Below the pieces are notes generated by a model. That model was not told the origin of the DNA. It saw only the letters and a program-made list of their open reading frames with translations, and searched no databases. Shown here piece after piece: positions 28,891 to 37,956 of a stretch of 64,000 nt of DNA. Each line of letters starts with the position of its first letter. Position 1 is the first letter of the stretch. The translations under genes were made by a program, and so were the position numbers. The DNA comes from Persicobacter psychrovividus (GTDB taxonomy: Bacteria; Bacteroidota; Bacteroidia; Cytophagales; Cyclobacteriaceae): NCBI RefSeq assembly GCF_036492425.1, contig NZ_AP025292.1, positions 2,666,001 through 2,730,000 of the forward strand, in the 5' to 3' direction.

Positions 28891-29607
28891 ATGCACTTTA
28901 AAAGAATAGTTCTGGTGATGGCCATGCACGCCGAAGCCAAACCCATACGCGAGCAATTAAAACTTCAGCCTGTTGAGAAACTTCACTCAAAGCTTCCCAT
29001 GGACACCTATCAGGGGAAGGTCAACGATTCTGAGGTATTTGTGGTCGTCAATGGCATTGATCCTCGATTTAATATCGACAGTATTGGCACGACCCCTGCC
29101 GCCGTTGCGACGCTCACAGCTATTAATCAACTTCAGCCCGACCTGATCATCAACGCTGGAACCTGTGGTGCTTTCAAAAGTAAAGGCAGCGAGATTGCCA
29201 AAGTTTACTGGGCAAATAATGTGATGCACCACGACCGCCGGATTTCTATTCCAGGCATGGAGGAATACGGCATCGGAAATTATCGCTGCTGGACAGACGA
29301 CACCCTCGCCAATAAGCTGAAAATGGATTATGCGACCATCAGCACGGGAAATTCACTCGATATGTGTGATACCGATTATGCGATTCTGGAAAAACAGGAG
29401 GTAGTCGTCAAAGAAATGGAGGCTGGAGGAATCGCCTATATTTGTGAATTGCTCGATATGCCTTATCTGGGCATTAAGTCTGTAACCGATTTAGTCGATG
29501 GCGGCATGTTACCTGCGGACGAATTTTTGATCAACCTGAAAAAATCATCTGAAGCATTGAAAGAAAAGGTTTTGCAGGTGATTGATGCACTGAGTACCGA
29601 AAAATAA
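28891..29607 (+). CDS. Phosphorylase-superfamily nucleosidase (MTA/SAH nucleosidase-like)
   Basis: A 238-residue protein of the nucleoside phosphorylase fold. AMHAEAKPIREQL at the N-terminus corresponds to the 'AM..E' start of MTA/SAH nucleosidases, NAGTCGAFKSKGSEIAKVYW is the nucleobase/ribose region, and VKEMEAGGIAYICEL (ribose 2'-OH contact) plus KSVTDLVDGG (catalytic Asp region) complete the family pattern. It would cleave 5'-methylthioadenosine or S-adenosylhomocysteine. It starts 31 bases after the hydratase, so it may share its transcript although the function is different. Confidence 0.83.
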   Translation: MHFKRIVLVMAMHAEAKPIREQLKLQPVEKLHSKLPMDTYQGKVNDSEVFVVVNGIDPRFNIDSIGTTPAAVATLTAINQLQPDLIINAGTCGAFKSKGSEIAKVYWANNVMHHDRRISIPGMEEYGIGNYRCWTDDTLANKLKMDYATISTGNSLDMCDTDYAILEKQEVVVKEMEAGGIAYICELLDMPYLGIKSVTDLVDGGMLPADEFLINLKKSSEALKEKVLQVIDALSTEK

Positions 29608-29624
29608 AAGGACATTATAATGTA

Positions 29625-29656
29625 GAGACGTTCGGAAGGACGTCTTTTTTTATTTT
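29625..29656 (+). terminator. Intrinsic terminator after the nucleosidase gene
   Basis: AGACGTTC pairs with GGACGTCT around a short loop and is followed by a T-rich run. The stem shares the GACGT core with the nearby palindromes. Confidence 0.75.
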
Positions 29657-29667
29657 AGACCACTTTG

Positions 29668-29730
29668 GTTCAAGCGTCCCGCTTGGATCAAAGTATTTAT
29701 ATGAAATCAATCCAATCGGGACGCTTGAAC
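29668..29730. repeat. Intergenic inverted repeat
   Basis: GTTCAAGCGTCCCG(C)TTGGAT at 29668-29688 pairs with its complement at 29710-29730 with one bulged base across a 21-base loop. No T tract follows, so it is not a normal terminator; it resembles a REP/MITE-like structure. Confidence 0.7.
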
Positions 29731-29738
29731 TGATAAGA

Positions 29739-29767
29739 ACGTTGCATTAGACGTTAAAAATAACGTC
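29739..29767. repeat. Palindromic intergenic repeat, divergent member
   Basis: ACGTTGCATTAGACGTTA followed by TAACGTCT: a diverged version of the ACGTTGCATGCAACGT element seen at 58.43 kb, with its own 8-base inverted repeat (AGACGTTA/TAACGTCT). Confidence 0.5.
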
Positions 29768-29821
29768 TCCACAGGACAGCATGCTTGACTAAATAACCTT
29801 GCCTACTTCAGTATAGACCAA

Positions 29822-29853
29822 AAAAAAGCCGATCATTACGACCGGCTTTTTTT
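29822..29853 (-). terminator. Terminator of the tRNA-Asn array
   Basis: On the minus strand AAAAGCCGGTCG...GATCGGCTTTTTTT forms a stem of about nine base pairs ending in seven T, two bases after the last tRNA gene. Confidence 0.85.
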
Positions 29854-29854
29854 G

Positions 29855-29928
29855 CTCCCAAGGTTGGGCTCGAACCAACGACCCTCTGATTAACAGTCAG
29901 ATGCTCTAACCAACTGAGCTACTTAGGA
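29855..29928 (-). tRNA. tRNA-Asn(GUU), array copy nearest the terminator
   Basis: 74 bases folding into a full cloverleaf: acceptor TCCTAAG/CTTGGGA with a G-T pair, D-loop GTTGGTTAGAGC, anticodon loop CTGTTAA with GTT, T-loop GTTCGAGCC. CCA is not encoded. The last copy to be transcribed in an eight-gene tandem array. Confidence 0.97.
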
Positions 29929-29968
29929 ATATTCTTCAGACCTAACATCCAAGGCGTTTTTACCTTTG

Positions 29969-30042
29969 CTCCCAAGGTTGGGCTCGAACCAACGACCCTC
30001 TGATTAACAGTCAGATGCTCTAACCAACTGAGCTACTTAGGA
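29969..30042 (-). tRNA. tRNA-Asn(GUU)
   Basis: Sequence identical to the copy at 29855-29928; it starts exactly 114 bases from it. Confidence 0.97.
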
Positions 30043-30082
30043 ATATTCTTCAGACTTAACGTCCAAGGCGTTTTTACCTTTG

Positions 30083-30156
30083 CTCCCAAGGTTGGGCTCG
30101 AACCAACGCCCCTCTGATTAACAGTCAGATGCTCTAACCAACTGAGCTACTTAGGA
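30083..30156 (-). tRNA. tRNA-Asn(GUU), variant copy
   Basis: Same as its neighbours except at plus-strand base 30109, where C replaces A (T to G in the RNA sense), in the variable loop. The cloverleaf stems are unaffected, so the gene should be functional. Confidence 0.95.
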
Positions 30157-30196
30157 ATATTCTTCAGACTTAACGTCCAAGGCGTTTTTACCTTTG

Positions 30197-30270
30197 CTCC
30201 CAAGGTTGGGCTCGAACCAACGACCCTCTGATTAACAGTCAGATGCTCTAACCAACTGAGCTACTTAGGA
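30197..30270 (-). tRNA. tRNA-Asn(GUU)
   Basis: Identical to the consensus copy; next 114-base unit. Confidence 0.97.
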
Positions 30271-30310
30271 ATATTCTTCAGACTTAACGTCCAAGGCGTT
30301 TTTACCTTTG

Positions 30311-30384
30311 CTCCCAAGGTTGGGCTCGAACCAACGACCCTCTGATTAACAGTCAGATGCTCTAACCAACTGAGCTACTTAGGA
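30311..30384 (-). tRNA. tRNA-Asn(GUU)
   Basis: Identical to the consensus copy; next 114-base unit. Confidence 0.97.
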
Positions 30385-30424
30385 ATATTCTTCAGACTCA
30401 ACATCCAAGGCGTTTTTACCTTTG

Positions 30425-30498
30425 CTCCCAAGGTTGGGCTCGAACCAACGACCCTCTGATTAACAGTCAGATGCTCTAACCAACTGAGCTACTTAGGA
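30425..30498 (-). tRNA. tRNA-Asn(GUU)
   Basis: Identical to the consensus copy; next 114-base unit. Confidence 0.97.
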
Positions 30499-30538
30499 AT
30501 ATTCTTCAGACTTAACGTCCAAGGTGTTTTTACCTTTG

Positions 30539-30612
30539 CTCCCAAGGTTGGGCTCGAACCAACGACCCTCTGATTAACAGTCAGATGCTCTAACCAACTG
30601 AGCTACTTAGGA
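30539..30612 (-). tRNA. tRNA-Asn(GUU)
   Basis: Identical to the consensus copy; next 114-base unit. Confidence 0.97.
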
Positions 30613-30652
30613 ATATTCTTCAGACTCAACGTCCAAGGCGTTTTTACCTTTG

Positions 30653-30726
30653 CTCCCAAGGTTGGGCTCGAACCAACGACCCTCTGATTAACAGTCAGAT
30701 GCTCTAACCAACTGAGCTACTTAGGA
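30653..30726 (-). tRNA. tRNA-Asn(GUU), promoter-proximal copy
   Basis: Identical to the consensus copy and first to be transcribed. Upstream sequence (30727 onward) is unique; I could not find a promoter with both boxes in good position. Confidence 0.97.
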
Positions 30727-31153
30727 GTGTTTCATTACGTCAGGCAATAATTTAGCGATCTGCTTTGCTTAACGGATTGCAAAGGTGCACTATCGTCTTT
30801 AATTATGCAAGTATGCCCACAAAATTTTTTTCATCAAATCATCCTTCAGGAACCAATAGGCTCATTTTCAATTTTTTTACTGACTGATTTTTTTCCGTCC
30901 GCAAAGTACTCCTATTAACAAATCTGACCAACATGGTGTACTCCCTTGAGGAAATCATGAAAATCTGTCGGACGAATAAGGTCAGCCTGTCGTAATTTAT
31001 GACAACCCCAAGCCACGCCACTGACAGCCCGAAGCCCTTTTCGGCTGCTGTTGTTAAATAATGTTAAGGTTTCCGATTGTATTTTGCTATGGCGCGAGCT
31101 TTGCCGTTATTTCAACTGTAATAAGAATCTATTCACAGAAATATAATATATCC
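30727..31153. other. Intergenic region between the tRNA-Asn array and htrA
   Basis: Holds the upstream region of the tRNA array (minus strand) and of the protease gene (plus strand). A small inverted repeat CTTTGC/GCAAAG lies at 30763-30784, and a hairpin of AGCCcGAA with TTTCGGCT type at about 31023-31051. The frames that cross this region have no coding character. Confidence 0.5.
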
Positions 31154-32635
31154 ATGAGTAATCGAAAGTTATTTCTTGCATTATTCGCGGCCTCATTATT
31201 AGGCGCAATCATCGCCGTTGGAGGATTTCAACTGGTAGCGCCACAACAAGAAGCTGCCACTCCCCAAAACGACGCTATTCAACAGCACACCAAATTAACA
31301 AACTACTTATCCCAGACGGACGCCTCGGTTCCCGAAGGACTGAACTTCGTGATGGCTGCTGAAGCCACCACCCCTTGTGTAGTACACATTAAATCAACGA
31401 TTACAGAAAGCTCAAACTACGGCGGACAACGCAGCGAACAAATGGAGGAATGGCTTCGACAGTTCGGCTTCGAGCCTCGCCGCCAACAGCCCCGATCAGG
31501 TCAGGCTTCAGGCTCAGGGGTCATCATCTCTAAAGATGGTTATATTGTGACCAACAACCACGTGATCGACAAAGCAAGCGACGTAAAAGTGGTGTTGAAT
31601 AATAACAAGAGCTACGAAGCGAAAGTCATTGGTACCGATCCTGCAACAGATTTGGCGGTCATCAAAATTGATGGCGATGGCGACGACTTCCCATTTGTAA
31701 AATTCGGTGATTCCGATGGCATCAAGGTTGGGCAGTGGGTACTCGCTGTAGGAAATCCATTTGAACTGAATTCTACCGTAACTGCGGGGATCATCTCCGC
31801 CAAAGGTCGAAACATCAATATCAACAGAAGCCAGTATGGTATTGAGTCTTTCATTCAGACGGATGCTGCGGTAAACCCGGGCAACTCAGGCGGCGCATTG
31901 GTCAATCTTAAAGGAGAGCTGATTGGCATTAACACAGCCATTGCCTCACCAACAGGATCGTATGCGGGTTATTCATTTGCTGTCCCTGCTTCACTGGTTA
32001 AAAAGGTAGCCATGGATCTCAAAGAATTCGGTATTGTACAGCGTGCATTGCTCGGGGTTGCAATTCGTGAAGTAAACGCTGATTTGGCCAAAGAAAAAGA
32101 CTTGGATGAAGTACAAGGCGTATTTGTAGCGGGAGTAAACGAAAACTCATCGGCAGACGATGCAGGCTTGGAAGAAGGCGATGTGATTTTGAAAATTGAC
32201 GACAGTCCAACCAATACCGTTGCGGGCTTGCAAGAATCCATTGCACGCCACCGTCCTGGCGACAAAGTAAAAGTTACCTTCAAACGTGGCAGCAAACGCA
32301 AAACAACAACGGTTACCCTCAAGAACATGATGGGCGAAACCACTGCGGTAAAATATGCAGGCTCGACAAAAATCGAAGGCGCAACTTTTGCCAACCTGAC
32401 CCCAAAAGACAAAGAAGCTCTCGAGGTTAAAGGCGGTGCCAAGATCATGGAACTTAAAGCAGGGAAATTCAAAGATGCTGGTCTCCGCGAAGGTTTCACC
32501 ATTACCCAAATCGATAAACGCCCGATTCACAATACCGAAGACCTGAGCCGTGTGCTTTCGTCGAAAAAAGGCGGTATCCTCATTGAAGGGAAGTACGAAG
32601 AAGGTGATCCTGTTTACTACGCTTTAGGCTGGTAA
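31154..32635 (+). CDS. degP: Do/HtrA-family periplasmic serine protease with two PDZ domains
   Basis: Envelope quality-control protease. I use the ATG at 31154, which begins MSNRKLFLALFAASLLG, a signal peptide or anchor; the frame extends 31 codons upstream. In the 493-residue protein the triad is His136 (TNNHVID), Asp166 (TDLAVIKID) and Ser245 (NPGNSGGALVN). Two PDZ domains follow (about 280-375 and 395-490); the second ends in a typical carboxy-terminal strand. Length is normal. It is a single gene closed by a strong terminator. In related bacteria such genes respond to envelope stress. Confidence 0.95.
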   Translation: MSNRKLFLALFAASLLGAIIAVGGFQLVAPQQEAATPQNDAIQQHTKLTNYLSQTDASVPEGLNFVMAAEATTPCVVHIKSTITESSNYGGQRSEQMEEWLRQFGFEPRRQQPRSGQASGSGVIISKDGYIVTNNHVIDKASDVKVVLNNNKSYEAKVIGTDPATDLAVIKIDGDGDDFPFVKFGDSDGIKVGQWVLAVGNPFELNSTVTAGIISAKGRNININRSQYGIESFIQTDAAVNPGNSGGALVNLKGELIGINTAIASPTGSYAGYSFAVPASLVKKVAMDLKEFGIVQRALLGVAIREVNADLAKEKDLDEVQGVFVAGVNENSSADDAGLEEGDVILKIDDSPTNTVAGLQESIARHRPGDKVKVTFKRGSKRKTTTVTLKNMMGETTAVKYAGSTKIEGATFANLTPKDKEALEVKGGAKIMELKAGKFKDAGLREGFTITQIDKRPIHNTEDLSRVLSSKKGGILIEGKYEEGDPVYYALGW

Positions 32636-37418: not shown

Positions 37419-37491
37419 GATTCGGTAGCTCAGCTGGTAGAGCATCTCCCTTTTAAGGAGAGGGTCCTGGGTTCGAACCCCAGCCGAATCA
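37419..37491 (+). tRNA. tRNA-Lys(UUU), copy 1 of 5
   Basis: 73 bases: acceptor GATTCGG/CCGAATC, D-arm GCTCAGCTGGTAGAGC, anticodon loop CTTTTAA with TTT, T-loop GTTCGAACC, discriminator A, no encoded CCA. First of five identical copies. Confidence 0.97.
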
Positions 37492-37570
37492 CAGAAATAA
37501 ATTTCTGTAAAGATCACAGATTGGCATAACTTTTTCTGCCTCTCTTTAGTCATATTTCAGACCAATAATT

Positions 37571-37643
37571 GATTCGGTAGCTCAGCTGGTAGAGCATCTC
37601 CCTTTTAAGGAGAGGGTCCTGGGTTCGAACCCCAGCCGAATCA
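37571..37643 (+). tRNA. tRNA-Lys(UUU), copy 2 of 5
   Basis: Identical to copy 1; 152 bases further on, after a unique spacer. Confidence 0.97.
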
Positions 37644-37673
37644 CTCCAAAATAATACTTGCGTAATAACGCAC

Positions 37674-37746
37674 GATTCGGTAGCTCAGCTGGTAGAGCAT
37701 CTCCCTTTTAAGGAGAGGGTCCTGGGTTCGAACCCCAGCCGAATCA
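37674..37746 (+). tRNA. tRNA-Lys(UUU), copy 3 of 5
   Basis: Identical sequence; 103 bases after copy 2. Confidence 0.97.
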
Positions 37747-37776
37747 CTCCAAAATAATACTTGCGTAACAACGCAC

Positions 37777-37849
37777 GATTCGGTAGCTCAGCTGGTAGAG
37801 CATCTCCCTTTTAAGGAGAGGGTCCTGGGTTCGAACCCCAGCCGAATCA
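37777..37849 (+). tRNA. tRNA-Lys(UUU), copy 4 of 5
   Basis: Identical sequence; 103 bases after copy 3. The spacers before copies 3 and 4 differ by a single base. Confidence 0.97.
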
Positions 37850-37878
37850 CAACCTAATAAATCCGTGTTAACACACAC

Positions 37879-37951
37879 GATTCGGTAGCTCAGCTGGTAG
37901 AGCATCTCCCTTTTAAGGAGAGGGTCCTGGGTTCGAACCCCAGCCGAATCA
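37879..37951 (+). tRNA. tRNA-Lys(UUU), copy 5 of 5
   Basis: Identical sequence; 102 bases after copy 4, followed by a terminator. Confidence 0.97.
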
Positions 37952-37956
37952 CATTG

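Follow-up and report, generated by a model that had tools for sequence, protein, structure and literature searches.

An array of eight tandem tRNA-Asn genes in Persicobacter psychrovividus, a genome rich in repeated tRNA arrays

Tandem duplication of tRNA genes has been described across the Persicobacteraceae, a family whose rRNA operons are reported to reside on plasmids only (Anda et al. 2023, PMC10645730). That paper gives the P. psychrovividus type strain 6,148,614 bases in 13 contigs and 173 tRNA genes; describes 20–25 tRNA clusters per genome, the largest being a 22-gene cluster in P. psychrovividus; and reports between one and fifteen gene copies on the chromosome for each anticodon together with a correlation with amino-acid composition. 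The dosage argument is already made there. In the main text of PMC10645730, a search found no passage on gene conversion, spacers, homogenisation, unequal exchange or recombination, and the word 'concerted' only in the title of a reference. For Flammeovirga pacifica, an excerpt of another report gives 83 tRNA genes (PMC5385347).

Here we describe an array of eight tRNA-Asn genes in a 64,000-nt stretch of P. psychrovividus DNA (contig NZ_AP025292.1; hereafter the window), taken from a genome that likewise has 6,148,614 bases in 13 contigs. The window array belongs to the published set: tandem tRNA duplication on the chromosome and a tRNA total far above that of relatives are both found, and our arrays and the excerpted account of Anda et al. 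(PMC10645730) share the species, the tandem duplication, a 22-gene cluster (present in our stretch L016) and the correlation with amino-acid use. Because Anda et al. 2023 report 173 tRNA genes and tandem duplication, this kind of feature is already in print. What is added here is an old tRNA-Asn site beside a Deg/HtrA-like gene, uniform but genome-specific seven-copy arrays at that site in two relatives, and a leader and terminator for the array.

The tRNA-Asn array and its flanks

ARAGORN places eight tRNA-Asn(GTT) genes in tandem on the minus strand between positions 29854 and 30726, an array of 0.87 kb (Table 1). All eight adopt a tRNA fold with a GTT anticodon, and the Rfam model RF00005 recovers the same eight genes, each at 70 bits against a gathering threshold of 29. 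The unit of 114 bases consists of a 75-base gene, by the ARAGORN boundaries, and a 39-base spacer; the first-pass annotation had given the spacers 40 bases. Its reading of eight tandem genes with a constant 114-base period stands, as the step is exactly 114 in each of the seven intervals and TRF reports a period of 114 with 7.7 copies, 98% matches, 0% indels and a score of 1703. The 3' CCA is not encoded. Seven of the genes are identical and the remaining copy is off by one base. The seven spacers share a mean identity of 96% (minimum 92%), compared with 60% for shuffled spacers; spacers 4–6, which are neighbours, are identical to one another, and the spacer variants are distinct and follow a fixed order along the array. 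Chance as the source of the repeat was ruled out by the exact period and the identity of genes and spacers.

Table 1. Features of the tRNA-Asn array and its surroundings (window coordinates)
Feature	Position	Strand	Remarks
tRNA-Asn(GTT), eight genes	29854-29928, 29968-30042, 30082-30156, 30196-30270, 30310-30384, 30424-30498, 30538-30612, 30652-30726	-	ARAGORN, Rfam, TRF
Variant tRNA-Asn copy	30082..30156	-	G replaces T in the variable loop; no other difference from the other seven
Seven 39-base spacers	Within 29929..30651; first 29929-29967, next ones every 114 bases	-	Identities in the text
Promoter-like element, TTG-N20-CACCTTTGC	30779..30810	-	53-84 bases ahead of the first gene
Intrinsic terminator	29820..29853	-	Directly past the last gene; -17.3 kcal/mol, z -5.85
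Deg/HtrA-like serine protease gene (presumed)	31061..32635	+	Head-to-head with the array; kept beside tRNA-Asn in part of the relatives
Nucleosidase/phosphorylase-like gene (presumed)	28891..29607	+	Beyond the 3' end of the array
tRNA-Lys(TTT), five identical genes	37419..37952	+	Second tandem array in the window; ARAGORN

The common form of the spacer (for example 30043-30081, minus strand) folds into two small hairpins at -7.9 kcal/mol, with a z score of -2.5 relative to shuffles. The folded spacer is perhaps a processing site between the tRNAs.

A promoter-like element lies ahead of the array, with equal spacing ahead of the arrays of two relatives (genomes G001 and G011; the P. psychrovividus genome is G000). 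Its pattern, devised after inspection of the leaders, matches 22 of 23 leaders where 0.20 are expected from mononucleotide shuffles; it also has three matches inside the G001 array and two in the window's leader, the second of these weaker-placed and further upstream. A scan for sigma-70 promoters of the E. coli type returned no match for the array. Downstream, a similar hairpin and T run follow the last gene in G001 and G011, as judged by eye rather than by folding. From their sequences we take the head-to-head neighbour to encode a Deg/HtrA-like serine protease and the gene beyond the terminator to be nucleosidase/phosphorylase-like. The latter occupies the matching place in G001; in the G011 stretch searched (L153), tblastn gave no match to it.

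Just outside the array, at 29662-29776, lies a palindromic dispersed repeat. The query 29605-29790 has 67 matches in its own genome, counting the query itself and scoring the two palindrome strands separately; several copies lie about 206 bases apart at C1:893841-895710. A second repeat, of 35 bases, adjoins the palindrome. These look like elements of the REP or MITE type.

Near-identical tandem repeats are prone to assembly error, and the eight genes could in principle be a smaller number wrongly expanded. We regard such an artefact as highly improbable, because the published assembly is long-read: according to the published methods, on which we rely here, it is a hybrid of HiSeq data and a PacBio library size-selected at 17-50 kb, compared with 0.87 kb for the array (PMC10645730). 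The distinct spacer variants in fixed order, and the seven-copy arrays that two other assemblies show at this site, also argue against it. Thus the artefact that the first-pass annotation had named as a possible refutation was not borne out.

Very probably, the array is a real polycistronic operon that arose by in-place tandem duplication of one tRNA gene and is maintained by homologous recombination and dosage selection. In the mechanism we propose, a single tRNA-Asn gene would have been duplicated in tandem where it stood. One transcript, cut at the spacers, would yield eight tRNAs, to which an enzyme would add CCA. Homologous recombination between units, by unequal crossing-over and gene conversion, would change their number and keep them alike, and selection for ample tRNA in a cell that grows fast and has many copies of the rRNA operon would hold the number high.

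A tRNA-Asn site in three genomes

A strict tRNA-Asn pattern matched in 23 of the 39 genomes of relatives searched; lack of a match in the other 16 need not mean that the gene is absent. Seven matches each were found in G000, G001 and G011 (the pattern misses the variant copy in G000, hence seven for eight genes) and one or two in each of the other 20. At the site itself, G000 carries eight copies and G001 and G011 carry seven each, a copy number that varies between species, and in all three a Deg/HtrA-like gene stands head-to-head within 1 kb. The flanks examined come from 16 of these 20 genomes without an array; a single full tRNA-Asn gene is present in 15 and two in the remaining one. The protease-like gene, its distance counted to the start of the tblastn match, is head-to-head within 1 kb in 7 of the 15 single-copy relatives; among the other eight it lies 2.7 kb off in one, on the opposite side in one, and was not found in the examined stretch in six. 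The simplest reading is that the arrays grew by local amplification at an old site that may have held a single tRNA-Asn gene.

Horizontal transfer of a mobile or phage-type array, which might serve, for instance, as a decoy or in anti-defence, is conceivable since tRNA arrays are known on phages and plasmids, where an excerpted report calls them a putative antidefense system (PMC12803027). A horizontal or mobile origin was rejected on synteny: the neighbours of the window array are shared with relatives. The array also has a single anticodon and its own terminator and promoter-like leader, and we give the idea very little credence.

Spacer identity within a genome is 0.96 in G000, 0.82 in G001 and 0.92 in G011. 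Between genomes it falls to the level of shuffled spacers: 0.575 versus 0.563 shuffled for G000–G001, 0.343 versus 0.358 for G000–G011, and 0.365 versus 0.351 for G001–G011. Over its first 45 bases the gene is uniform in 8/8, 7/7 and 7/7 copies of G000, G001 and G011, respectively, and differs between the genomes; the stem-base differences between genomes are common to the copies within each. Relative to G000, the G001 gene has one acceptor pair changed on one side and one changed on both sides; in G011, both sides are changed in four acceptor pairs and one T-stem pair, and a further acceptor pair is changed on one side. At one and the same locus, copies thus resemble each other more closely inside a genome than across genomes, as in concerted evolution. 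The recent amplification or ongoing gene conversion that the first-pass annotation had proposed is therefore supported by spacers uniform within genomes and at shuffle level between them, and by the genome-specific stem bases. The other refutation it had named, relatives with the same eight diverged copies, did not hold: the two relatives have seven, uniform inside each. For Asn, uniform arrays with their own spacer and stem bases may reflect either concerted evolution or amplification after the split, as both would leave the same picture.

In the G001 assembly, three of the seven tRNA-Asn genes are short of one G at the 3' end, and the Lys genes have scattered one-base losses; these are probably sequencing errors. 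The G001 stretch L152 has scattered one-base losses in tRNAs and broken reading frames, which suggests that a long-read assembly was left uncorrected, and copy counts there need care.

The age of the array relative to the species split is informed by its presence at the same site in three genomes and by the Gly/Leu and Phe arrays, which bear on pre-split age for arrays other than Asn. The eight genes of a Gly/Leu array follow one another in identical order in G000 and G001, and the array therefore predates their split. The Val-Thr-Cys array has 13 genes in G000 versus 10 in G001, a difference of one whole three-gene unit. In the Phe array of G001 (L178), six of seven genes have a paired change at positions 6-67 (our own numbering) and one keeps the G000 form. 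This pattern would fit gene conversion limited to the tRNA bodies; selection could also contribute.

These observations bear on a rival account, a recent burst in P. psychrovividus only, in which one tRNA-Asn gene lately became eight without long-term homogenisation and the relatives amplified separately. Spacers that are so nearly identical, three of them completely, fit such a burst, as do the species-specific spacers and gene bodies. So do four tRNA-Asn arrays of family f59 (L163-L166) with no Deg/HtrA-like gene within the examined 10 kb; arrays therefore also occur at other sites. However, all three array-bearing genomes of the family use the same site, and certain other arrays are older than the divergence of the two Persicobacter genomes (the Gly/Leu order and the one-of-seven Phe form). 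We see a recent burst as possible but rather doubtful.

Arrays across the genome and tRNA dosage

ARAGORN finds 171 tRNA genes in 23 stretches of the P. psychrovividus genome, which were picked through Rfam matches (150, from 150 candidates scored) and through 100 of the 172 places that fit a T-loop pattern, rather than by a full scan; two stretches picked by the T-loop pattern, L150 and L151, have no tRNA gene inside. Eighteen clusters in the 23 stretches are arrays with a repeated anticodon, ranging from Arg to Val, and hold most of the 171 genes. The second array of the window, tRNA-Lys, has a counterpart of nine copies (three of them misread by ARAGORN) at the corresponding location in G001, where it lies some 7 kb away from the Asn array. 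With Rfam, G001 gives 151 tRNA matches and G011 gives 137; for six other members of the family the counts are 40, 35, 38, 49, 39 and 29. 16S genes were sought in G000, G001 and G011 by model and by pattern with no match, the model having scored 14 of the 76 G000 candidates and 9 of 14 controls being positive; matches were obtained in G016 only (1 of 13 genomes by model, 1 of 7 by pattern).

Arrays differ in how far their spacers are homogeneous within G000. The Asn, Arg, Met and Leu(CAA) arrays have highly homogeneous spacers; the spacers of Phe, Asp-Asp and Ser(TGA) are at shuffle level, and those of Leu(TAG) are close to it. All eight genes of the Asp array are identical, with spacers at 0.52 versus 0.51 shuffled, and all eight bodies of the Phe array are alike, with spacers at 0.38 versus 0.37.

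tRNA gene number follows amino-acid use (Spearman rho 0.73, p 0.0008) over 17 amino acids and 242 ORFs; Ala, Ile and Met were excluded because their genes are partly on the rRNA plasmid or unassignable. Lys, which makes up 6.4% of residues and has 5 genes, falls below the trend. Within a ribosomal-protein stretch of 19 kb (30 ORFs, not all ribosomal), AAC makes up 133 of 240 Asn codons versus 2269 of 5185 in the sample, and codons ending in C are up for Asn, Phe, Tyr and His and down for Asp. Correlation and codon use agree with the dosage role suggested by the first-pass annotation, but they do not show it for Asn: the correlation spans the tRNAs and Asn is not singled out.

Alternatively, recombination could have left the copies behind as neutral remnants that play no part in dosage. 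It favours this view that the dosage role is a prediction from sequence; against it, the Asp and Phe genes are uniform though their spacers are at shuffle level, and gene counts follow amino-acid use. We consider neutral leftovers unlikely.

Returning to recombination under dosage selection, we tentatively extend it to the family, as a conjecture that may well prove wrong. Persicobacteraceae might keep about 20 dispersed tRNA arrays in long-term concerted evolution, in which young arrays would turn over by whole units and old ones (Phe, Asp) would convert bodies only, with compensatory stem pairs passed between copies and spacers left to drift. Copy number would then be a dial tuned by recombination and matched to the dosage of plasmid rRNA operons. 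If the concerted-evolution reading is true, the family would be a good natural system for how bacterial tRNA supply rises: numerous arrays that differ in age share one genome, and the rRNA operons of the clade have moved to a plasmid, so that unit turnover, gene conversion and dosage selection could be distinguished.

Tandem tRNA-Asn genes elsewhere and known tRNA arrays

At least 119 stretches of other named genomes have three or more tandem tRNA-Asn genes at a period of 89-119 bases, in a survey that counted copies up to three. Among the matches listed are Pseudoalteromonas, Halomonas, Shewanella, Parabacteroides and Flammeovirga; we take those listed to be largely Gammaproteobacteria and Bacteroidales. 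At the level of the order, three or more tandem tRNA-Asn genes occur in 6 of 194 genomes, the window's included, and in 3 of 94 genera. The array had been called unusual for a single isoacceptor; with 18 repeated arrays found, that does not hold in this genome, and tandem tRNA-Asn stretches are also numerous elsewhere. A search of a plasmid collection gave only a 75-base match in Persicobacter sp. JZB09 and one of 54 bases in Bacteroides. Tandem tRNA-Asn as such is not rare, and what is notable is eight copies in a genome full of arrays.

In one further genome (G034:C23), a complete tRNA-Asn gene is accompanied, 18,994 bases away, by a second copy consisting of just its 3' half (L174 and L175), a pattern such as might be left by an element integrated into tRNA-Asn.

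The tRNA array units of mycobacteria, phages and plasmids resemble the window array in being dense runs of tRNA genes, as far as the excerpts of PMC5966550 and PMC12803027 describe them. According to PMC10645730, the arrays reported earlier have a larger anticodon repertoire, whereas the window array has a single anticodon, which sets it apart from many-anticodon array units, and conserved chromosomal neighbours. Closer in kind are E. coli glyV, glyW, glyX and glyY, identical tandem tRNA genes ascribed in PMC4539685 to within-genome duplication. That array has three or four copies, whereas the window array has eight, in a genome in which 18 repeated arrays were found.
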